NCBI GenBank assembly: GCA_027624855.1
Contig: JAQBTQ010000013.1
Location: forward strand, 1-64,000
DNA: 64,000 bases
Direction: 5' to 3'
DNA from: Bacteroidota bacterium
GTDB taxonomy: Bacteria; Bacteroidota; Bacteroidia; Flavobacteriales_D; Sanyastnellaceae
Under the pieces are notes generated by a model. That model worked only from the letters and a program-made list of their open reading frames with translations. It ran no database searches and was not told the origin of the DNA. This document shows positions 24,733-58,223 of this stretch, in pieces. Numbering within the stretch: the stretch's first letter is position 1; every line of letters starts with the position of its first letter. Position numbers and translations under genes: made by a program.

Positions 24733-25464
24733 ATGAGATTCAAAATACATTCGATTGTTGCTGCGATTGCATTTTTTTCGTCAATTGATGCAAAGGCGCA
24801 AGGGTGTGAGCCTGTGACTTATGATGGTTACACCTACAAGGTTGTTCAAATTGGCGATCAATGTTGGTTTGCGGAAAATTTGAGGACCAGGCGATACGCG
24901 AATGGTGATGCGATACCGGTAGATTCGTCAGATGAACAATTAAGTGAAATGAATCAGGGGGCGAGAGTAGTTTATGGCGAAGATGAGAGATGCAACAATA
25001 AATCGCCTGATGGCGATGCATGCGACCCCAATTGGTCACTCAAAGAATACGGCCGCCTCTACAACAGCTTAGCAATGAATGATGGCCGAGGATTGTGTCC
25101 CAGCGGCTGGCATGTTCCAACAGATGGTGAGTTTATGACGCTGGAGATGGAACTGGGATTGAGCGAAGTTGAGTGTAATACGGTATTTTGGCGCGGCACC
25201 GACCAGGGCACACAGTTGAAAGCAACTTATGGATGGAATGACGATGGCAATGGGGAAAACTCGAGCGGTTTTTCAGGATTGCCTGGCGGTGTTCGATTAT
25301 TCGATGGACGTTTCCGTGGAGCTGGAACTTATGGGGTTTGGTGGAGTTCTTCGCCTGTTGGCAGTGAATTTTGGAATCGCACACTTTTCGACGTCGGCTC
25401 AGATATTACCCGCCATAACAGCGGTAGTGGAACCTTTTTGTCTGTCCGTTGCCTCAAAGACTGA
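24733..25464 (+). CDS. FISUMP-domain exported protein (copy 1)
   Basis: A 243-aa exported protein. The signal peptide is residues 1-23 (ends AKAQG). The FISUMP (Fibrobacter succinogenes major paralogous) domain follows, with the hallmark WFAENLRTRRYANGD, YGRLYNSLA, GLCPSGWHVPTDGEF, GFSGLPGG, WWSSSP and C-terminal SVRCLKD. These domains are common on the surface of Bacteroidota and Fibrobacter, and their ligand is unknown. A 38-bp stretch (24859-24896) is identical to the FISUMP gene at 27083, indicating recent duplication or gene conversion. Confidence 0.85.
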   Translation: MRFKIHSIVAAIAFFSSIDAKAQGCEPVTYDGYTYKVVQIGDQCWFAENLRTRRYANGDAIPVDSSDEQLSEMNQGARVVYGEDERCNNKSPDGDACDPNWSLKEYGRLYNSLAMNDGRGLCPSGWHVPTDGEFMTLEMELGLSEVECNTVFWRGTDQGTQLKATYGWNDDGNGENSSGFSGLPGGVRLFDGRFRGAGTYGVWWSSSPVGSEFWNRTLFDVGSDITRHNSGSGTFLSVRCLKD

Positions 25465-27082: not shown

Positions 27083-27940
27083 ATGAAGCTAACTACAAAT
27101 CCACTCTTTTTTGCACTGCCATTCATCATGTTGATTGGCATTATGAATTCAGGTAAAGCCCAAGACAATAATGATTGCCAATCCCTCAACTATCAGGGCT
27201 ATACCTATGCACTCGTTGAGATTGGCGACCAATGTTGGTTTGCGGAAAATTTGAGGACCAGGCGATATGCGAATGGGGATTCGATTATTTCTGGATTCGT
27301 TGAGAATTCCGATGCGGTTGGTAGAGTGGATCAATACAAGGAATTGGCCCCGAATGAAAGCTATGACACGGAGGGATGGACTGACGTTGAAATAGACATT
27401 TATTTGAGTTTTGGCGAAGCGCCTGAAGGAGCGAATCTTGTCGAAGAGGTAATTTTCAGTCCAGAGCACCACGGGCTTCTTTATAACTGGTATACTGTAC
27501 ATAATGACCGAGATGTATGTCCGATAGGTTGGCACGTTCCGGAAATAGCAGAATTCGAAATGCTGCAAAAGGTGGTCGAGTCAGGCAAGGTCGATGAGGA
27601 GCAGGTATTGAGAGCGCTTGTCGCGGACGGGGATGACTGGGAATTGTCAATGGATTCAATTGATCATGTCAGTGGAAAAGAGCTCATCAATGCAGCTGGA
27701 TTTTGGGCATACCCATCAGGAGTTTGGGAAACCTATGGCGGGGAACCGGCGGGATTTTGGAATTCTAATCATGCGGCATTTTGGACTACCTCTCTTGCAG
27801 GACCTGATGCATGGAGTTGGGATTTGCAAGGGAATTGGTATTATGGCGACTTGGATGGTGAGCACCTCCAGAGGACCAGTGTTGGAAAACACCACCGATC
27901 AAGAATGGACGGTTGTTCTATCCGGTGCCTACGTGATTAG
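27083..27940 (+). CDS. FISUMP-domain exported protein (copy 2)
   Basis: A 285-aa exported protein. The signal peptide is residues 1-27 (ends GKAQ). The FISUMP domain carries WFAENLRTRRYANGDS, LLYNWYTVHNDRDVCPIGWHVP, GFWAYPSGVW, AAFWTTS and SIRCLRD. ATG 27083 is chosen over an upstream in-frame TTG at 27062. Its central domain is related to the gene at 24733, including 38 identical bp (27230-27267), but the flanking loops differ strongly. Confidence 0.83.
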   Translation: MKLTTNPLFFALPFIMLIGIMNSGKAQDNNDCQSLNYQGYTYALVEIGDQCWFAENLRTRRYANGDSIISGFVENSDAVGRVDQYKELAPNESYDTEGWTDVEIDIYLSFGEAPEGANLVEEVIFSPEHHGLLYNWYTVHNDRDVCPIGWHVPEIAEFEMLQKVVESGKVDEEQVLRALVADGDDWELSMDSIDHVSGKELINAAGFWAYPSGVWETYGGEPAGFWNSNHAAFWTTSLAGPDAWSWDLQGNWYYGDLDGEHLQRTSVGKHHRSRMDGCSIRCLRD

Positions 27941-28089: not shown

Positions 28090-28665
28090 ATGATGCATCC
28101 GCATACACGGGTCCAATTCATCGGGGATGAAGTGGGCCAAGGGGTGGTCGCTACGGCGTTCATTCCTAAAGGAACGGTGACCTGGGTTCAAGATCCATTG
28201 GATCGGGTGTTTACGCCGAGTGAAGTGGGCACTTTACCTGCTGCTTCACAAGCACAATTGGAGTATTTCGCGTTTAAGAATGGCAAAGGCAATATGGTCT
28301 TGTGCTGGGATCACGCGAGGTATGTGAATCACAGCTTTCGAAGCAACTGCCTGAGTACGGTTTTTGATTTCGAAATCGCTGTTAGGGATATCCAACCGGG
28401 TGAGCAATTGACCGATGATTATGGATACCTCAACTTGCCATTTCCTTGGAGGCCAAATGATGAAGGAACCCGCAGGAAATGGGTGCGCCCAGACGATTCC
28501 GTTCGCTATGCAAAAAATTGGGATTCCCAAATCAATCGAGCGTTGCGTCGGTTGAATCGGGTCGATCAACCGCTGCTGTCATGGGTTGCACCAGAGGTTT
28601 GGACAATGGCGAGCCAGCCGGAGGCATTCAATCGAAGCATTCGAGAGTTGTATTGTCCGTTGTAG
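28090..28665 (+). CDS. SET-domain protein
   Basis: A 191-aa protein with a compact SET domain, the lysine methyltransferase fold. It shows the N-terminal strand (VVATAFIPKGTVTWV), the SAM-site motif RYVNHSFRSNC (about residues 77-87, the NHS/NC signature), and the catalytic-tyrosine region DDYGYLNL (about 113-120). There is no post-SET cysteine cluster. The C-terminal half is helical and basic. The substrate is unknown. Bacterial SET proteins of this size occur in several phyla. A TACATTCA element at 28070-28077 may be its -7 box. The flanking genes are unrelated. Confidence 0.82.
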   Translation: MMHPHTRVQFIGDEVGQGVVATAFIPKGTVTWVQDPLDRVFTPSEVGTLPAASQAQLEYFAFKNGKGNMVLCWDHARYVNHSFRSNCLSTVFDFEIAVRDIQPGEQLTDDYGYLNLPFPWRPNDEGTRRKWVRPDDSVRYAKNWDSQINRALRRLNRVDQPLLSWVAPEVWTMASQPEAFNRSIRELYCPL

Positions 28666-29574: not shown

Positions 29575-29611
29575 ATAAAGTAAAAGGCGAAGAAAAAGTC
29601 GCTTTCTAAAG

Positions 29612-29631
29612 GATTCACCCTTATCCGTGAA
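29612..29631 (+). promoter_or_regulatory. Palindromic site 1 (TTCAC-N8-GTGAA)
   Basis: TTCAC at 29614-29618 and GTGAA at 29627-29631 form an inverted repeat around an 8-nt spacer. 18 of the 20 bases starting at 29612 recur at 31347-31366. It lies 67 bp before the TPR-HTH regulator gene and 13 bp before a weak -7-like TATTTTCC, a plausible operator for that regulator. Confidence 0.5.
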
Positions 29632-29698
29632 AGCGTTAACCATCTATTTTCCTGATATTGGGATTAGAAAATCATTCAATTCACCCACTACTATTTTC

Positions 29699-31333
29699 AT
29701 GACGAGGGAAATTCGGCTCTTTTGGATGTTCGTGTTGGTGCTGGGCATTCAATCCGAAGTTGAAGCGGATTCAGGTGGTTCATTGGATAGCTTATTGGAA
29801 GTATGGCACGACGAGTCCGCGAACATCGACGAGCGATTCGCGGCATTTGACGAGATGTACGCGGGATACCACCAACGGTACCCCGATACGATGCTGGTGG
29901 AATTGGAGCAGTTGGCGGTGAAGGCGCTAGAACACAATCGACCGCTCATCCTGTTTGAGGCGTGGGTGCGCAAAGGGGGCTTGCTCAATTACAAGGGACT
30001 CAACGAACAGGCCCTCAAAGCGTATCAGCGAGCGGAGGAGGTCATCTTACCGTTTGACGATGACATGCGCATGGGCTCCTTGGCCTCGAACCGGGGAAAT
30101 GTGTACGCCAATCAAGCGGATTATGCACGAGCCATGGATTCCTTCACGACAGCCTTGGAATTGTATACAGCAGCTAATTTTGCACCTGGTCAACGCAATG
30201 CCCGAATGGCATTGGGCAACGTGTTTGTCTTGATTGAAATGTTCGAGTTGGGAAAAACCCAATACGAGGAGGTGCTTGCTGAATTGGATTGGACCCCAGA
30301 GAATGCCCGCTTTCGGGGGCTTCTGTACACGAACCTCGGGTACTGCGAATACAAGCTGGGAAACTTGCAGCACGCAAGGGAACTATACTACCAAGCGATG
30401 CCACTTGCTGAGCAAGCCCATTCCGATTATCATCTGGCTTGCATTCATCAAAACATCGGTACGCTTTACGAAGAGGAGGGCCTGCTAGACGACGCGGAGT
30501 TTCACGCAATGCGGAGCTTGACCCTGTTTGAACGGCTGGGTGCGGAACAGTCCATGGTCGAATGCCAAGTTTTGCTCGCGCGGCTGCACTTGGGCGACGA
30601 CGTGCGCGGGTCTTTGGAACAGGCGGAGGGCATTTTAGCACGGCAGTCGGACATAAAAGACCACAAGCTGTCGCGCGATTTGCACGAGCTGCTGTACCTC
30701 GCTCACAAGGAATTGGGCAACACGCCGCAGGCCCTTGAAATGCACGAATCCTATCTCGCGTTTCACGACAGCGTCGAGCACGCGCGAAACAAGTACATCG
30801 TCATTCGCACAGCGTACGAAAAGGATGTTGAGCACCGGTTGAATGTGCTTCGGATGGAAGGCCAAGAAGAGGTGGACAGGCTGTACATCAAGCAGCTTCA
30901 AACCGTTATCCTGCTCATCGTGATTTTCGGTCTTGTGGTTGCCGGAGTGGTGGCCTATGCCTTGCGAAACAAAGCCATGCACGAACAGCGCAAAGCGTCA
31001 CTGCTTAAAGAAATAGAGGGGTTGAAAGCCTCGCAAATGAGAAACATGGCGATCTCCATGCCCTCACTGGAAGACCAGCGAGCGGCCATTGAAGCGGCCA
31101 TTGATCGGCCGTTGAACGAAACCGATTGGAAGGTCTTGAACCTCTTAATGACAGAACCGACCATGACGAACCAAGCCATTGCAGATCAGGCCTTCCTAAG
31201 CATTGACGGCATCGGCTCTTCTCTCCGAAGGATGTACGAATATTTCAATATCAAAGAGACGAGATACAAGAAAATTGCACTGGTTCACGTCGTGACCAAA
31301 CTCACGCTGGAGCCGAATCACCCTTCGGAATGA
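29699..31333 (+). CDS. TPR - transmembrane - LuxR-like HTH regulator
   Basis: A 544-aa protein. The signal sequence (about residues 1-22) is followed by an extracytoplasmic array of TPR repeats (about 60-370, e.g. NRGNVYANQADYARAMDSF and NLGYCEYKLGNLQHAREL), one TM helix (about 401-421), a short coiled coil, and a C-terminal winged/LuxR-type HTH (about 480-535, NQAIADQAFLSIDGIGSSLRRMYEYF). This sensor-regulator layout, with external TPRs and a cytoplasmic DNA-binding domain, is typical of Bacteroidota. The ATG at 29699 is preferred to an in-frame GTG at 29627 that lies inside the palindrome. It is bracketed by two copies of a palindrome, suggesting autoregulation and control of the downstream secreted proteins. 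Confidence 0.85.
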   Translation: MTREIRLFWMFVLVLGIQSEVEADSGGSLDSLLEVWHDESANIDERFAAFDEMYAGYHQRYPDTMLVELEQLAVKALEHNRPLILFEAWVRKGGLLNYKGLNEQALKAYQRAEEVILPFDDDMRMGSLASNRGNVYANQADYARAMDSFTTALELYTAANFAPGQRNARMALGNVFVLIEMFELGKTQYEEVLAELDWTPENARFRGLLYTNLGYCEYKLGNLQHARELYYQAMPLAEQAHSDYHLACIHQNIGTLYEEEGLLDDAEFHAMRSLTLFERLGAEQSMVECQVLLARLHLGDDVRGSLEQAEGILARQSDIKDHKLSRDLHELLYLAHKELGNTPQALEMHESYLAFHDSVEHARNKYIVIRTAYEKDVEHRLNVLRMEGQEEVDRLYIKQLQTVILLIVIFGLVVAGVVAYALRNKAMHEQRKASLLKEIEGLKASQMRNMAISMPSLEDQRAAIEAAIDRPLNETDWKVLNLLMTEPTMTNQAIADQAFLSIDGIGSSLRRMYEYFNIKETRYKKIALVHVVTKLTLEPNHPSE

Positions 31334-31346
31334 GCGGCATCCAATT

Positions 31347-31366
31347 GATTCACCCCTATGCGTGAA
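31347..31366 (+). promoter_or_regulatory. Palindromic site 2 (TTCAC-N8-GTGAA)
   Basis: Second copy of the 18-bp palindrome (TTCAC 31349-31353, GTGAA 31362-31366). It is 33 bp before the ATG of the Kazal protein gene and 10 bp before TAAATTTA (31377-31384), a near -7 box. The site therefore covers the -33 region. Confidence 0.5.
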
Positions 31367-31399
31367 CCGATTGTCTTAAATTTACTTCACCTTCGAACC

Positions 31400-32320
31400 A
31401 TGAAAAAGCTATTCCAAACCATACATATCGCAATGCTGGCCGCGACATGCAGTATCCATGGGATCGTTTTTTCTCAAGTCACTACTGCAGTGGACTGCGA
31501 CCTCATGAACCTTGTCGTGAATGTGGGCTCACAGCCCAATATGATCAGCCTGTACCACCCCGGGGGATACCTGACCTGGCCGCCTTCGGAGAATGTTATG
31601 GAATGGGAATTCACCGATAGCGATGGCAACATCATCCACGAGGAAGTTTTGGTCGACAACCCCTTCATCACGTTCGAGTTCGACATTCCATTGACAGACA
31701 CAATGTTCGTTTCGGTGCTCCTAACCAACGATTCAGCATTGCTCAATGGGAACCCATTGGCGTGCCTCATAGAAGACTACTTGACGTGGGAGATCAGTAC
31801 TTGGCCGAATAGCGGGGAGGAATATGGCACCTGGACGCTAGGCGGCAGTGTAGGAGTGGATGTTTCCGAACCCGCTTCTTGCATTGATGAGGACCTGATC
31901 GACCCCAATGCAATTTGCCCTGCAGTATTTGAGCCGGTTTGCGGATGCGACGGTGTGACTTATTCAAACGAATGCGAGGCCACCTACCTCGGGGGAGTCA
32001 CATCATGGGAATACGGGCCATGCGTAGTGGTTGAATACGGGGGCTGCACATACCCGCAAGCCTGCAATTTCGATCCGGGTGCTGCATTCGAAGACGGTTC
32101 GTGCACGTTCCCGCCGGAAGCTTGCGCGTGGCCGAGCGCATGGGCTGCTGGTTGCACCTATGAGGATGCCGAGAATTACGATGACAGTGCTGCCGTAGAT
32201 GACGGTTCGTGCACATGGGGTCCGTGTGAGGTGTGCGTGGGTGACCTCGATGGGGATGCCGTTGTGGCCGTCACAGATGTACTCATCCTGCTGAGCGCAT
32301 TTGGCGCTGAATGCCCGTGA
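31400..32320 (+). CDS. Secreted protein with Kazal and DGSC/dockerin-like repeats
   Basis: A 306-aa exported protein. The signal peptide is residues 1-27. Domain 1 (about 30-155) is shared with the next gene (VNVGS, LYHPGGYLTWPPSENVMEW, TDTMFVSVLLTNDS). A Kazal-type inhibitor motif follows (CPAVFEPVCGCDGVTYSNECEA, about 173-205), then two GCTYxxAxNxxxxAxxxDGSC repeats, and a C-terminal GDLDGDAVVAVTDVLILLSAFG calcium-loop segment. It is presumably a secreted inhibitor or adhesion protein. ATG 31400 is preferred because ATG 31358 lies within the palindrome and adds a non-signal prefix. The neighbouring regulator may control it. Confidence 0.8.
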   Translation: MKKLFQTIHIAMLAATCSIHGIVFSQVTTAVDCDLMNLVVNVGSQPNMISLYHPGGYLTWPPSENVMEWEFTDSDGNIIHEEVLVDNPFITFEFDIPLTDTMFVSVLLTNDSALLNGNPLACLIEDYLTWEISTWPNSGEEYGTWTLGGSVGVDVSEPASCIDEDLIDPNAICPAVFEPVCGCDGVTYSNECEATYLGGVTSWEYGPCVVVEYGGCTYPQACNFDPGAAFEDGSCTFPPEACAWPSAWAAGCTYEDAENYDDSAAVDDGSCTWGPCEVCVGDLDGDAVVAVTDVLILLSAFGAECP

Positions 32321-32361: not shown

Positions 32362-32976
32362 ATGAAAAATTTTCTTACACTTCTCTTCCTAGCCTTAGTC
32401 TCATCGGTGTCAGCCCAAATCACTTCGGTCGGATGCGACTCCATGGCCTTGGTGGTCAATGTTGGATCTCAAGAGACTGCGTTGAATTTGTATCATCCGG
32501 GCGGATACCTCACTTGGCCACCGAGCGAAAACGTAATGGAATGGTTGTTCACGGATGAGGAGGGCAACGTGGTTCACGAGGAGACACTGATCGACGAAAA
32601 CTTCGTTTCCTTCGGTCACAATGTTCCTGTCACGGACACCATGTTTGTATCCGTACTCCTCACCAACGATTCATCCATTTATTATGATGGAAACCCGGTG
32701 GCGTGCCTTATAGAAGACTACTTGACGTGGGAAGAAGAAGAAATCATTCCCGGCACTTTTATCGGCGCTTGGACGCTTGGCGGCGCAGTTGGGACCTATG
32801 CTGGAGAGCCGTCGGGCATTGGAGAGGTGGCCTTTGGATTCCCTTCAACACCCAGGAAGCTGGTTTCCATCTTGGACATCACGGGCCGTGAGGTAAACCC
32901 CGAGCCGAATCAATTGCTCTTTTTCATCTATGATGATGGCTCTGTGGAGAAGCGATTTGTGGTGGAAAGGAGGTGA
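32362..32976 (+). CDS. Secreted paralogue with T9SS-type C-terminus
   Basis: A 204-aa exported protein. The signal peptide is residues 1-19 (ends SVSAQ). Domain 1 is clearly paralogous to residues 30-155 of the preceding gene. The C-terminal about 50 residues (FPSTPRKLVSILDITGREV, IYDDGSVEKRFVVERR) look like a short T9SS type A sorting domain. The same C-terminal style occurs in the deiminase gene at 42600. It follows the Kazal protein gene by 41 bp and is probably cotranscribed. ATG 32362 gives the signal peptide; an in-frame ATG at 32338 is less likely. Confidence 0.78.
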   Translation: MKNFLTLLFLALVSSVSAQITSVGCDSMALVVNVGSQETALNLYHPGGYLTWPPSENVMEWLFTDEEGNVVHEETLIDENFVSFGHNVPVTDTMFVSVLLTNDSSIYYDGNPVACLIEDYLTWEEEEIIPGTFIGAWTLGGAVGTYAGEPSGIGEVAFGFPSTPRKLVSILDITGREVNPEPNQLLFFIYDDGSVEKRFVVERR

Positions 32977-34541: not shown

Positions 34542-35306
34542 TTAGTACATATCCTCAATGCATCGGACAAATGGAAAGTATCCACCATCACCAATATGCA
34601 TGAAATTATAATAATCATCAAAACACACAAACGAGGTTCCGCAACCATCTTCTTGACGACCCTCTAGTTCTCCATTGATAGGGAATGCATAAAATCCAAC
34701 TTCATTGGTTCCTGGCAGGCAGCCGTCTACTTCGAGCCAGCCTTGGGTGCTTTTCAGTTTGGTTTCCCACGAATTGCCAAGTGCACTTTTCAAGTTATCC
34801 CAATCTTGTACGGTCGGAATTCTCCAACCATCTGGGGCCAGTCCACGATCATCACGGATAGCTGCACTGTTGTAAATATGCCCGAGAACTTCTTTGCTAA
34901 CCCATCCTCCAAACACATTTTTTTCAATGGTTGTCACTGAAATAAAGGCCGGTACATCAGATCCTTCGTATTGCTCAAACTCCTCCGAATTGGTGCATTC
35001 ATGAATGGGGTCTCCATTTCGAAAATGACTCACTTTTAAATTTTTTGCCGTCCAGTGCATTCCATAGAGAACCTGGTCGTTCTCATCATTAATTTCAATG
35101 AAAGTAATGGGCATGTTCTCTTCAAAACCGTCCGGTGTGTAATGGATATTCTCGTAATGTTCTGGCCTATGAGTATCGCCTCTCCAATTATCCAGTATTT
35201 CCTGACTTGGTAATACCCAGTCATCATGAAGGTAGGTGCGACAGCCCGCTGTGCACATGATGAGTCCGCTAAAAATGATCAATGAGATGGAAACTTGATT
35301 CTGCAT
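34542..35306 (-). CDS. FISUMP-domain lipoprotein (copy 3)
   Basis: A 254-aa predicted lipoprotein (lipobox CTAGC, Cys about 22). It has a divergent FISUMP domain: WTAKNLKVSHFRNGDPI, HIYNSAAIRDDRGLAPDGWRIPTVQDW, GFYAFPINGEL and a terminal FVRCIED. The hallmark is looser than in the copies at 24733 and 27083, and no long DNA identity with them was seen. It is divergent from the DUF4920 gene, with overlapping promoter space. Confidence 0.75.
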   Translation of the reverse strand: MQNQVSISLIIFSGLIMCTAGCRTYLHDDWVLPSQEILDNWRGDTHRPEHYENIHYTPDGFEENMPITFIEINDENDQVLYGMHWTAKNLKVSHFRNGDPIHECTNSEEFEQYEGSDVPAFISVTTIEKNVFGGWVSKEVLGHIYNSAAIRDDRGLAPDGWRIPTVQDWDNLKSALGNSWETKLKSTQGWLEVDGCLPGTNEVGFYAFPINGELEGRQEDGCGTSFVCFDDYYNFMHIGDGGYFPFVRCIEDMY

Positions 35307-54531: not shown

Positions 54532-56016
54532 ATGAAAGTTTTGATTCAATTGTTTTTTTTGTTGTTGATTTTCGGCGCGGAAATCAGGGAATTACAGGCA
54601 CAACAAGATCCTGAATCCGCTCAAGATTCAACGGAATCAAAGGGAATATCGGAGGAGTCCAAATACCAGGAATACAAGGAGTTGTTTGGTTTGTACTGTG
54701 TGGATCAAAAAGGAACCGACAATTATGGTGAGGGCATAGAAGCGTTGTACGGAACCCGGAATTTTCGTCCCATCCTTCATGGTGTAGCCTATCGCGGCGG
54801 TGGCAATAACTATTACCACCGAACCGACAAGCGAAACAATAAAAACCCGCTTCCGCCTGATGGCTTGCAGAATTTGGCCAATTTGGATTTTTCGACGTCG
54901 GTTTATCTCTACACTGAAAATTTTGAAACGGCCCCTTCGGAGGTTTCAGGTACGAATGGTACCATGAGTTATCAGCAAATCAGCGGGAATACCGAAGCCG
55001 AACAAGACGAAATTTTGGCGCTAGTCCATGAATCCATTTTGAACCAAGAAATCGGGCCTGTTTATCTGCATTGTTGGAATGGATGGCATCAATCCGGGTA
55101 CATTTCGGCCATCATTTTGCGCCAGTTTTGTGGGTTGAGTGCGTCCCAAGCGTTGCAATACTGGGCTGAAAACGCGGATGGTTGGAATAAAGGATATCAG
55201 CGCATTCGAACAGCGATTGCAGAGTTCAAGCCACGAAAACAATATCAAATTGAGGCTTCTTTGAAGGAGGAGATTTGCCCGTGCATGAGTGAGTGGGAAG
55301 AAACAGACCTTGTTGCATCCGAAAAATTGGATTGGATTCAAATCAACATGAACCGAATGGTTCCATTTGGCAGGAATTCAAGTGAAATTGATCCAGGTGC
55401 CCTCACAGCAATTGATGATTACATTGAATTTCTGAACGAGCATCCATACCTCACTGTTGAGGTTGGAGGTCATAGTTCTTTGACCGGCTCCGCCGCTTAC
55501 AATCAAAAATTATCCCAAACCCGTGCTGAAACGGTAATGAAATACATGGTGAGTTTGGGTGTCGATCCTACTCGTTTGACTGCCGTGGGATATGGTCAAT
55601 CCCAGCCCGTGATGCGTGGCACTTCGGATGAAGCGAATCAGCTAAATCGCCGAATTCAATTCCGGGTGACCTCGCTCTCCTATCAATTTGAATTCGCATT
55701 GAGCAGTGCAGAAATTCGGCCCATCTACCGCAAAGAGCTCATTGAGTTGAAAGAGATCCTAAGTTCCGTTTCGAACGCTAAATTTCTGATTACTGGTCAT
55801 ACGGATGACTCTGGAACCAAGGCCTTCAACGATCGCCTTTCTGAGATGCGTGCGAAATCTGTCTATGATTTTTTGAAAGATCAAGGCTTTGATGTCAAAC
55901 GATGCGAGTACAAAGGAATGGGATCGAGTTCTCCTGTAGTGCCCAACACGACGGATGCCAACCGAAATCGCAATCGTAGAATTGAAATAGCAATCATTCC
56001 CAATTCAAAACCGTGA
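54532..56016 (+). CDS. Phosphatase-like domain fused to two OmpA domains
   Basis: A 494-aa exported protein. The signal peptide is residues 1-24 (ends LQAQQ). Residues about 45-250 form a dual-specificity/tyrosine-phosphatase-like fold whose P-loop reads HCWNGWHQSG (His180, Cys181). The invariant Arg expected six residues after Cys is Gln187, so normal phosphatase catalysis is doubtful. Two tandem OmpA-like peptidoglycan-binding domains follow (about 280-385 and 395-490), with GHSSLTGSAAYNQKLSQTRAE and GHTDDSGTKAFNDRLSEMRAK. It is thus a cell-wall-anchored periplasmic protein. The stop overlaps the GTG start of the CotH kinase gene (GTGA), so the two are coupled. Confidence 0.8.
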   Translation: MKVLIQLFFLLLIFGAEIRELQAQQDPESAQDSTESKGISEESKYQEYKELFGLYCVDQKGTDNYGEGIEALYGTRNFRPILHGVAYRGGGNNYYHRTDKRNNKNPLPPDGLQNLANLDFSTSVYLYTENFETAPSEVSGTNGTMSYQQISGNTEAEQDEILALVHESILNQEIGPVYLHCWNGWHQSGYISAIILRQFCGLSASQALQYWAENADGWNKGYQRIRTAIAEFKPRKQYQIEASLKEEICPCMSEWEETDLVASEKLDWIQINMNRMVPFGRNSSEIDPGALTAIDDYIEFLNEHPYLTVEVGGHSSLTGSAAYNQKLSQTRAETVMKYMVSLGVDPTRLTAVGYGQSQPVMRGTSDEANQLNRRIQFRVTSLSYQFEFALSSAEIRPIYRKELIELKEILSSVSNAKFLITGHTDDSGTKAFNDRLSEMRAKSVYDFLKDQGFDVKRCEYKGMGSSSPVVPNTTDANRNRNRRIEIAIIPNSKP

Positions 56017-58223
56017 AACGCCATCTGCTATTTGCACTCTTAATGATTGGGGCCTTCGGTCTGTCGAATCGGTTCGAAGCTCAAGAACACATTCGGTGTT
56101 CCCACGTCAGCGGCAAATCGGACTCTTCTTTTGTCTTCACCGCGTCGAGTGAACGTGGAGAATTGCGATTTGAGACGGGCGGAACATTCGTCAGCAGTTC
56201 CAGTCCGCGCTGGCCAGATAGTTTGGTCATCAACCGAACCACGGCGCTAGAATTGGCGTTGTTTGATGCCGACACATTGGTCGAGCGGTCGCACCGGTTT
56301 TTTGCCGTGGATATTCCCACGCACTTCCCCATTTTGGCGGTTTCAACTGCGGGATACTACTTCTGGGATTCCGTCAACGGCATCAGCGTTCGAGGTCCAA
56401 ACGCCTATTTTGACACCACATCAGGATTTTGGCGCAATAACAATTATGAGAAGAAATGGGAGCGGGAGGTGAATATTGTTTACATCGAGGACGATGGAGA
56501 AGAGGTCATCAACCAGAGAGGTGGCATTCGGGTATTTGGAGGGATGAGTCGGCATTTGCCCCAAAAATCTTACCGAATCATCGCGCGAGAGGAATACGGT
56601 AAAAAGCGATTTAAGCACCAATTTTTTGAGCATCGTGAGAACGAGAAATTTAAGACCCTCGTGCTGCGCAATGGATCAACCCATTACAATAAATCCAAGA
56701 TTTTGGATGTTTTTGCGACGCAGCTTGCGAAAGAATTGGGCCTGGAAATTCAAGAAGCGCAACCTGTCACCTTGTACATAAACGAGGAGTATCAAGGCAT
56801 TTATAACTTGAGGGAACACATACGAGGGCATTACTTAGAAGCCAATTGGGGAGGTGACCGGGATTCGATGGATTTGATTCAGGGTCACTCTCGTGCTGAA
56901 AACGGAGATTCAAAAGGTTATTTTGAAATGTTCGATTGGATCAAGAAGACGGACTTGTCGGATGATTCCTTTTTGCCCGAACTGTTTAAGTGGATGGATG
57001 TCCGTAACTATTTCAATTTTATGGTGGTTCAGATTTATCTGAACAATGTGGACAGCATGGGAAACATCCGATTTTGGCGTAAAGACGATTCCACGCCATT
57101 TCGATGGATACTGTACGATACGGATTTGGGTCTCGGTCACAGCCGTGCGGTTTCTTTTAACTACATGCAGTATCGATTGAGTCGGGTCCAAACGGATTGG
57201 TTCAATCCTCAGTGGTCCACGGCCATCATCACCAACCTGTTGGAAAATGACTCATTGAAGAAGGACTTCATCCATCAAGTTTCTTATATCACCAGTACAA
57301 CCTTTGAGGTTGAACGATTTGAAAGTGTCTTGGATTCCTTGGTGGATTTGTATGCGCACGATGTTGAGATCCATCGCAATCGAATCGGTCAATTGAATAA
57401 ATGGGAATATCACATTAACAAAATCAGGGAGTACGGGCAAAAGCGTCCGCCATACATGCTGGAATATACCCGTCAGCAATTTGACCTGGACAAACCTTAT
57501 CGCCTAGAAATCGTCAATGAGCATCCTGAATGGGGTCACTTCCGGATCAATGACAACCCAGGCCGCTCTGATTCGACCTATGCAGGCTGGTATTTTTCAG
57601 AATTACCATTGAAAGTGGAATGGGTGCCAAACCGGCTGTTCAAGGCGACTGAAGAGTCGATTTTGTTTGTTTCCGCTGAGCCAGGAGACACACTGCGTCT
57701 GCAGCCGCATTTTGAGCCGAGCCCGATGAGCCCTTATGCTGGAAAGGTCAAATTGAACGAGTGGCATCCTGCTCGAGATTCCGTGGCCCCTTGGATTGAA
57801 TTGATTTCATTAATTCCCGATACCATTCCTGGGTTGAATTGGACGTTTTGGACTGCTTCAGGAGAATTCGATTTTGAGTATGCTAGCATGGGTAAATCCA
57901 CCTTTTATCTCGAAGATTCTCTGAGCACATTGTGGAGCGATTCTTCTCACGTGCGTGGCTGGTGGCGAATGCTTGATGAAGAAGGGCTGGTTATTGATAG
58001 TATTTCTTGGTATGATTTGAAGCCAACAGGGGTTTATGAACGAGTCGATTCGATTGGTCATGAATTGGAGTGGATTGAGGGTCCTGGAACGCCAGCATTA
58101 CTTAATCCAAGCCAACAGCCTCCAAGAGAACGTGCGTCCATTTGGTTGGTTTCACTTTTGATTTTGGGCCAGTTCATGCTGGTTTGGCATTCTTATTTCA
58201 AAAAAGAAAAGGTAAATCTTTAA
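56013..58223 (+). CDS. CotH-family kinase-like membrane protein
   Basis: A 736-aa protein. The signal peptide is residues 1-23. Its CotH kinase domain (about 150-470) has RGGIRVFGGMSRHLPQKSYRI (substrate/ATP lysine), LVLRNGSTHYNKSKILDVF, NNVDSMGNIRFWR and the metal motif WILYDTDLGLG (D-x-D). A second, beta-sandwich lamin-tail-like region follows (about 575-690), and a C-terminal TM anchor (about 710-728) with a basic end. CotH proteins phosphorylate secreted proteins in Bacillus spores, and the target here is unknown. The GTG start (56013) overlaps the stop of the phosphatase-like/OmpA gene. Confidence 0.87.
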   Translation: MKRHLLFALLMIGAFGLSNRFEAQEHIRCSHVSGKSDSSFVFTASSERGELRFETGGTFVSSSSPRWPDSLVINRTTALELALFDADTLVERSHRFFAVDIPTHFPILAVSTAGYYFWDSVNGISVRGPNAYFDTTSGFWRNNNYEKKWEREVNIVYIEDDGEEVINQRGGIRVFGGMSRHLPQKSYRIIAREEYGKKRFKHQFFEHRENEKFKTLVLRNGSTHYNKSKILDVFATQLAKELGLEIQEAQPVTLYINEEYQGIYNLREHIRGHYLEANWGGDRDSMDLIQGHSRAENGDSKGYFEMFDWIKKTDLSDDSFLPELFKWMDVRNYFNFMVVQIYLNNVDSMGNIRFWRKDDSTPFRWILYDTDLGLGHSRAVSFNYMQYRLSRVQTDWFNPQWSTAIITNLLENDSLKKDFIHQVSYITSTTFEVERFESVLDSLVDLYAHDVEIHRNRIGQLNKWEYHINKIREYGQKRPPYMLEYTRQQFDLDKPYRLEIVNEHPEWGHFRINDNPGRSDSTYAGWYFSELPLKVEWVPNRLFKATEESILFVSAEPGDTLRLQPHFEPSPMSPYAGKVKLNEWHPARDSVAPWIELISLIPDTIPGLNWTFWTASGEFDFEYASMGKSTFYLEDSLSTLWSDSSHVRGWWRMLDEEGLVIDSISWYDLKPTGVYERVDSIGHELEWIEGPGTPALLNPSQQPPRERASIWLVSLLILGQFMLVWHSYFKKEKVNL

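Follow-up and report, generated by a model that had tools for sequence, protein, structure and literature searches.

Palindromic candidate operators of a membrane-spanning TPR–HTH regulator upstream of secreted-protein genes in Flavobacteriales

Two palindromes in the window, the whole stretch of 64,000 nucleotides analysed here, are probably operators of a membrane-spanning TPR–HTH regulator, which would activate very few secreted proteins and would also control its own gene. The reading of the palindromes as operators is strongly supported and their link to the TPR–HTH regulator is well supported; activation of the targets is likely, judging from promoter geometry. Observed directly were the site itself, a constant distance between it and the -7 box at the target genes, its linkage to and co-occurrence with the regulator, and the lack of further full copies in the own genome. 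Many related bacteria have this combination of sensor and site as well. The features of the locus are listed in Table 1.

Table 1. Features of the regulator locus, with positions in the window.
Feature	Positions	Strand	Basis or remark
Candidate palindromic operator 1, TTCACCCTTATCCGTGAA	29614–29631	+	67 bp before the regulator ATG; probable autoregulatory site
Weak -7-like box, TGATATTG	29653–29660	+	21 bp after operator 1; 4/6 consensus letters
Regulator, 544 aa	29699–31333	+	Pfam TPR_12 and HTH_24; hydropathy; AF2 model
HTH domain, most conserved part of the regulator (LNETDWKVLN..IA....S.DGIGSSLRRMY)	31067–31309	+	Far better conserved than the TPRs
Candidate palindromic operator 2, TTCACCCCTATGCGTGAA	31349–31366	+	Predicted to span -51 to -34 of the Kazal/YHPG gene promoter
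-7 box, CACCTTCG	31388–31395	+	Exactly 21 bp after operator 2; 4/6 letters
Target gene, encoding a secreted protein with a Kazal domain and, at the N-terminus, an Ig/Fn3-like "YHPG" domain	31400–32320	+	Kazal_1; alignments
Paralogue with YHPG domain	32362–32976	+	Alignments; no palindrome of its own in the window

A sequence-only reading of this DNA had described two 18-bp palindromes of the form TTCAC-N8-GTGAA, lying in 20-bp blocks that match at 18 of 20 positions. Both statements were confirmed in the window sequence (blocks 29612–29631 and 31347–31366). The bare pattern occurs three times in the window against 0.08 expected, a number reached in none of 100 shuffles. The third copy (56136–56153) looks like a chance occurrence: it is located within an ORF (56013–58223) and lacks the internal CCCnTAT. 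Across the 2.29 Mb draft genome, in which the window lies on contig 40, the bare pattern was unremarkable, with 8 places versus 4 for the backward control. The earlier reading had named many unrelated genomic copies of the motif as evidence against it; the full motif ATTCACCCNTATNCGTGAA was found only at the two places in the window; the 12 next-nearest places listed each have 3 mismatches, and none lies within 2. Between the upstream gene and site 1, at 29580–29605, a short hairpin-like stretch (AAAG-CGA against TCGCTTT) was seen by eye, which is possibly the terminator of the upstream gene. The locus is surrounded by three PF09603 proteins (Fibrobacter succinogenes major paralogous domain) at 24733–25464, 27086–27940, and 34542–35306, and a bacterial SET-domain protein (PF00856, E 2e-10) is encoded at 28090–28665.

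The regulator had been described from its sequence as a TPR–TM–HTH protein, an architecture that is supported by Pfam, hydropathy, and the predicted structure. An N-terminal hydrophobic stretch is followed by a TPR superhelix (residues ~29–338), a TM helix (~402–424; hydropathy peak 2.96 at residue 403), a linker, and the C-terminal HTH (~457–537). In the AF2 model (mean pLDDT 86.7; ~80 in the HTH), the TM stretch is contained in one helix of ~110 residues (342–451), and the HTH is built of four helices without wing strands. At E ≤ 0.001, Pfam returned TPR, SNAP, and HTH families alone, and no kinase or receiver domain was found. The HTH_24 match lies above the Pfam cut-off, and a TM helix and a DNA-binding domain are predicted within one chain, as in transmembrane one-component regulators. 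The TM helix is flanked by four K/R residues on the HTH side versus two on the other, and this bias, together with the N-terminal hydrophobic helix, would be consistent with a TPR sensor located outside the cytoplasmic membrane.

Conservation among the regulators is far higher in the HTH than in the TPRs. HTH_24 was the best Pfam match in all 18 of the 18 members compared; GerE was below the cut-off in the window regulator and weak in 3 of the 18. In the hhalign comparison, the HTH matched AsnC (probability 94.5% over 33 columns) no worse than GerE (93.2% over 49).

The secreted family to which both downstream proteins belong was named YHPG here, after a motif. The Kazal protein additionally has Asp/Cys repeats and a dockerin-like end (both by eye). 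The earlier reading had placed the second palindrome ahead of the Kazal gene and its paralogue; this holds for the Kazal gene, whereas the paralogue has no site of its own here and does have one in the closest relative, genome G013. In the window, the paralogue is possibly transcribed by read-through from operator 2. The paralogue's YHPG domain was modelled by AF2 as mostly beta (pLDDT 91.4). Pfam searches of 18 members gave only scattered single-member chance matches for this domain, no NCBIfam domain was found in the two window proteins, and the best PDB sequence match had an E-value of 0.096. Among the 50 matches listed in the fold search, the domain resembled generic Fn3/Ig-like and complement domains (best E 0.0011, query TM 0.33–0.45). 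The T9SS type A sorting domain TIGR04183 exceeded its cut-off in 4 of 8 tested proteins of relatives (4/6 YHPG proteins and 0/2 other targets); one of the YHPG proteins, that of locus L109, has no site. TIGR04183 was not detected in the two window proteins. A C-terminal tail, ~GREVNPxPNQxLFxIYxDGSVEK, is common to the paralogue (32800–32976) and the propeller-like target of loci L044/L120, and is perhaps a sorting signal missed by TIGR04183.

Near-full-length matches of the regulator were present in 9 of the 22 genomes of the genus, including the own genome. Beyond the genus, a first sample of 60 genomes yielded matches in one other genus of the family and in one other family of the order. The identity was 82% in G013, 40–49% in the seven others of the genus, 43% in G029, and 32% in G052. 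The same palindrome accompanies most of these regulators; none was found in the fetched stretch at the regulator locus of G011 and G002. G013 has the paralogue first, then the regulator and the Kazal gene, and a site stands before each of the three (the regulator's has 2 mismatches); in the window, regulator, Kazal gene, and paralogue follow one another with two sites.

When the genus was searched for exact copies of TTCACCCNTNNNCGTGAA, 8 of the 22 genomes yielded 15 matches in total, versus 1 for the backward control. Ten of the matches precede YHPG genes, one precedes the window regulator, and two are within long ORFs; the other two are ahead of a secreted propeller-like gene of G018 and at the corresponding remnant place in G020. 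Two of the ten YHPG-gene sites (G018:C118 and G012:C337) do not share a contig with the regulator, and in G002, G005, G008, and G021, where the fetched stretch contains no regulator, near-matches were identified ahead of YHPG genes. Thus, the site does not merely travel with the regulator gene. At L045 (G020:C92), the regulator frame is broken by stops, but the locus has the YHPG gene and the two sites downstream; the regulator is possibly decaying in that species, or the break is an assembly error.

A wider scan of GTDB genomes with a YHPG profile produced 69 loci, 22 of which have an HTH regulator alongside. The relatives with named records are Flavobacteriales and allied MAGs; an 88% match belongs to Crocinitomicaceae. 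Across Flavobacteriales, the site upstream of the secreted YHPG relatives has the 18-bp consensus ~TTCACsCyTAggCGTGAA. Sixty-three upstream regions with a usable start, from 62 loci (L094 has two genes), were scored; the scoring left out 7 loci in which no start was usable, one gene too close to the end of its contig, and secondary fragments of <100 bits. A site with a score ≥14 was found in 38 of the 63 regions versus 10 of 1,227 control windows from the same loci, and the remaining 25 regions scored <14. After removal of the 15 training rows, 23 of 48 regions (21 of the 23 distinct) retained a site versus 0/48 with the reversed matrix. Since some of the relatives are near-identical, these counts are not all independent.

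The site was also associated with the presence of the regulator. Where the regulator is linked, the site is present at 21 of the 21 scorable loci; where it is not, at 16 of 41. The regulator was sought genome-wide (E 1e-10) for 50 of the 69 loci, 7 of which were taken because they were linked; of the 43 unlinked loci, 39 were scorable, and the 4 unscorable ones have no regulator. A regulator elsewhere in the genome was found for 7/16 loci with a site versus 0/23 without one (Fisher p = 0.0007), three of the seven genomes having been used in training. In the other 9 of the 16, no regulator was detected anywhere at E 1e-10; some of these are small assemblies. In a test anchored on the regulator, 28 of the 299 genomes sampled from the order carry it. 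Of the 29 loci listed, 28 were examined, and 21 of these have a site with a score ≥13 in the fetched 1.5-kb flanks, versus 0/28 with the reversed matrix. Outside the 11 loci of training-set genomes, 12 of 17 regulator loci have the site. No site was found in the fetched flanks of 7 of the 28 loci; G011, where no target was found, is among them. In L257, L263, and L264, no YHPG gene was found; there the site is followed by the gene of a secreted protein that by eye is leucine-rich or propeller-like, and the -7 box at 21 bp is kept with 5/6 letters. The regulon interpretation had been said to depend on conservation of the motif, and the motif is indeed kept beside orthologues of the regulator and, in trans, before the target genes.

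The position of the site relative to the promoter was then derived from an alignment of 21 sites (17 distinct), chosen from the loci of the first comparison with relatives, with ≤3 mismatches and upstream of genes. The -7 box of Bacteroidota, TAnnTTTG, is matched 21 bp beyond the palindrome by a mean of 4.37 of 6 letters with related sites grouped, as compared with a maximum of 2.99 over 5,000 random rotations. In 23 further unused sites (21 distinct), the mean at the same 21-bp offset was 4.39/6 letters versus 3.0. The sequence-only reading had proposed a weak -7-like box at each palindrome; such a box exists, but the one conserved across relatives is 21 bp downstream of the palindrome and is not the adjoining A/T-rich stretch. 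Both window boxes are weak, and operator 1 is followed at 13 bp by another weak match, TATTTTCC, that competes with the one at 21 bp.

The -7 box of Bacteroidota promoters is placed at -12 to -5 (PMC6847099), and with the 21-bp spacing the palindrome therefore extends from -51 to -34, with its centre at -42.5. On this geometry, the palindrome at target promoters is predicted to occupy the position of a class II activator. Fixed spacing with a centre near -41.5 or -42.5, which characterizes this class, was found at the target promoters and not at the regulator promoters. For 10 of the 38 sites of the wider YHPG set, an ATG is located at +1 or +2, in the target frame in 10/10; thus, leaderless messages are predicted. 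The loci with the predicted start at, or one base before, the ATG are L094, L096, L099, L103, L104, L105, L108, L112, L113, and L115. Likewise, in the window the predicted +1 downstream of operator 2 is the A of the Kazal gene ATG at 31400. Leaderless messages were reported to make up 5.5% of the mRNAs examined in Flavobacterium psychrophilum (PMC9723704).

Ahead of the regulator genes of the window, G013/L094, L113, L175, L176, and L177, a site is located 47–70 bp before the start; no YHPG gene was found in L175, L176, and L177 (loci of ~3.2 kb each). The presence of a site before the regulator's own gene, in the own genome and in four others, suggests autoregulation. The fixed 21-bp spacing was not found at these promoters, of which 0/6 reach 5/6 letters at that distance; therefore, autoregulation could be repression. 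In G072 and for one of the two regulator genes of G073, the -7 box scores best at a distance of 11 bp.

From these data we infer DNA binding, dimerisation, activation, and membrane topology as follows. The TPR superhelix would be exposed outside the cytoplasmic membrane, and the single TM helix would run on into the long helix and carry the C-terminal HTH inside, where a dimer would bind the 18-bp palindrome. Centred at about -42.5, the palindrome adjoins the place of the -33 element; because of this, the bound regulator would touch RNA polymerase and activate transcription in the class II manner. The targets would be one to three secreted proteins per genome within the scanned genus, most of them YHPG proteins and some with a T9SS sorting tail. 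A more speculative and rather doubtful extension is that the TPR factor and the operator–promoter form a conserved "socket" for varied secreted clients (YHPG, leucine-rich, and propeller proteins), with the periplasmic TPRs reading the export or state of the client and feeding back on the promoter without a kinase or a soluble regulator. The operator, its exact promoter position, and the short target list can all be read from the DNA, so that two short fragments and a single domain would suffice to test binding and activation. If true, the circuit would control a secreted protein family for which the domain models searched gave no match. It also poses the question of how a protein fixed in the membrane finds its one promoter or its few.

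Two alternatives accept the palindrome as an operator. According to one of them, which we consider unlikely, the regulator represses rather than activates, the site overlapping the -33 region at its own promoter; in G072 and at the one G073 gene, with the -7 box 11 bp off, a bound protein would block the polymerase. However, the spacing at the targets is fixed at 21 bp and leaves the -7 region free, as fits a class II activator, whereas repressor sites usually tolerate varied positions. It is also improbable, to a slightly greater degree, that the palindrome is the genuine operator of a different transcription factor and that the neighbouring TPR–HTH gene only shares its control. The nine unlinked site-bearing genomes (of 16) without a detectable regulator would be explained in this way, but the regulator is present in 22/69 YHPG loci with the site in 21/21 scorable ones, it is missing from all 23 siteless genomes, and the site stays beside it when the target gene encodes a different protein.

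The other two alternatives are very improbable. The earlier reading had weighed a self-contained surface-sensing regulon against direct repeats bounding a mobile 1.7-kb cassette, and of these the regulon was supported in part and the cassette was not. Near-identical blocks do bracket the regulator, its presence is patchy (9/22 genus genomes), and the neighbour genes vary between relatives. However, G013 has three sites before three genes in another order, single sites precede targets in many genomes, including some whose fetched stretch lacks the regulator, no ORF around the segment is by eye an obvious transposase or integrase, and the other repeats found are short or within genes. With the flanking gene for a fatty acid hydroxylase as a guide, a syntenic empty site was sought in the three closest relatives that have this gene (76, 67, and 66% identity; a fourth with 41% was left out of this reading), and none was definable because the neighbours of the hydroxylase in those three differ from those in the window. 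Equally hard to credit is a role of the palindrome as an RNA hairpin, in a leader element or terminator. An 18-bp inverted repeat with constant polarity towards the gene at nearly all sites of the first comparison could be read in this way; however, the -7 box puts it ahead of the transcription start, and a T run directly follows only 1 of the 21 aligned sites (the G013 paralogue; by eye). Operators of the TPR–HTH regulator thus remain the preferred reading.

Transmembrane transcription regulators are described as enriched in Bacteroidota, and their way of working from the membrane as poorly understood (PMC10269533). The regulator is predicted to share with the ToxR/CadC-like proteins treated there a sensor outside, a TM helix, and a DNA-binding domain in one polypeptide; it differs from them in having a TPR superhelix as its presumed sensor and the HTH at the C-terminus. 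The main text of that paper does not use the terms TPR, tetratricopeptide, LuxR, or GerE, and the titles and opening lines of abstracts of the open-access papers listed contained no description of this regulator or of the motif. The TPR region also matched NCBIfam FimS with E 2e-7, far under the cut-off score. FimS–FimR positively regulates FimA fimbriae in Porphyromonas gingivalis (PMC11053733). FimS itself is a histidine kinase, and its response regulator is a second protein, whereas the present protein bears its own HTH and no kinase domain was found in it.

Among the 50 matches listed in a fold comparison of the TPR part alone, which included no HTH match, were LGN (Z 28.6, rmsd 3.4, 313 aligned), NprR (Z 25.4, rmsd 5.0, 327 aligned), RapI (Z 24.2, rmsd 5.3, 335 aligned), and MalT (Z 21.8, rmsd 2.8, 272 aligned). 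The TPR superhelix is thus arranged similarly to that of the RRNPP sensors NprR and Rap and of MalT domain III; since LGN scores higher, the likeness reflects a common repeat fold and is no evidence of kinship. NprR, Rap, and MalT are cytoplasmic, whereas the regulator described here is predicted to span the membrane. A parallel in promoter geometry is the lux box, a 20-bp palindrome centred at -42.5 through which LuxR activates in the class II manner. The palindrome described here has a similar length (18 bp) and the same predicted centre and class, and the HTH aligns with the GerE profile, though no better than with AsnC; unlike LuxR, the regulator has no autoinducer domain, would be membrane-bound, and has HTH_24 as its best Pfam match.
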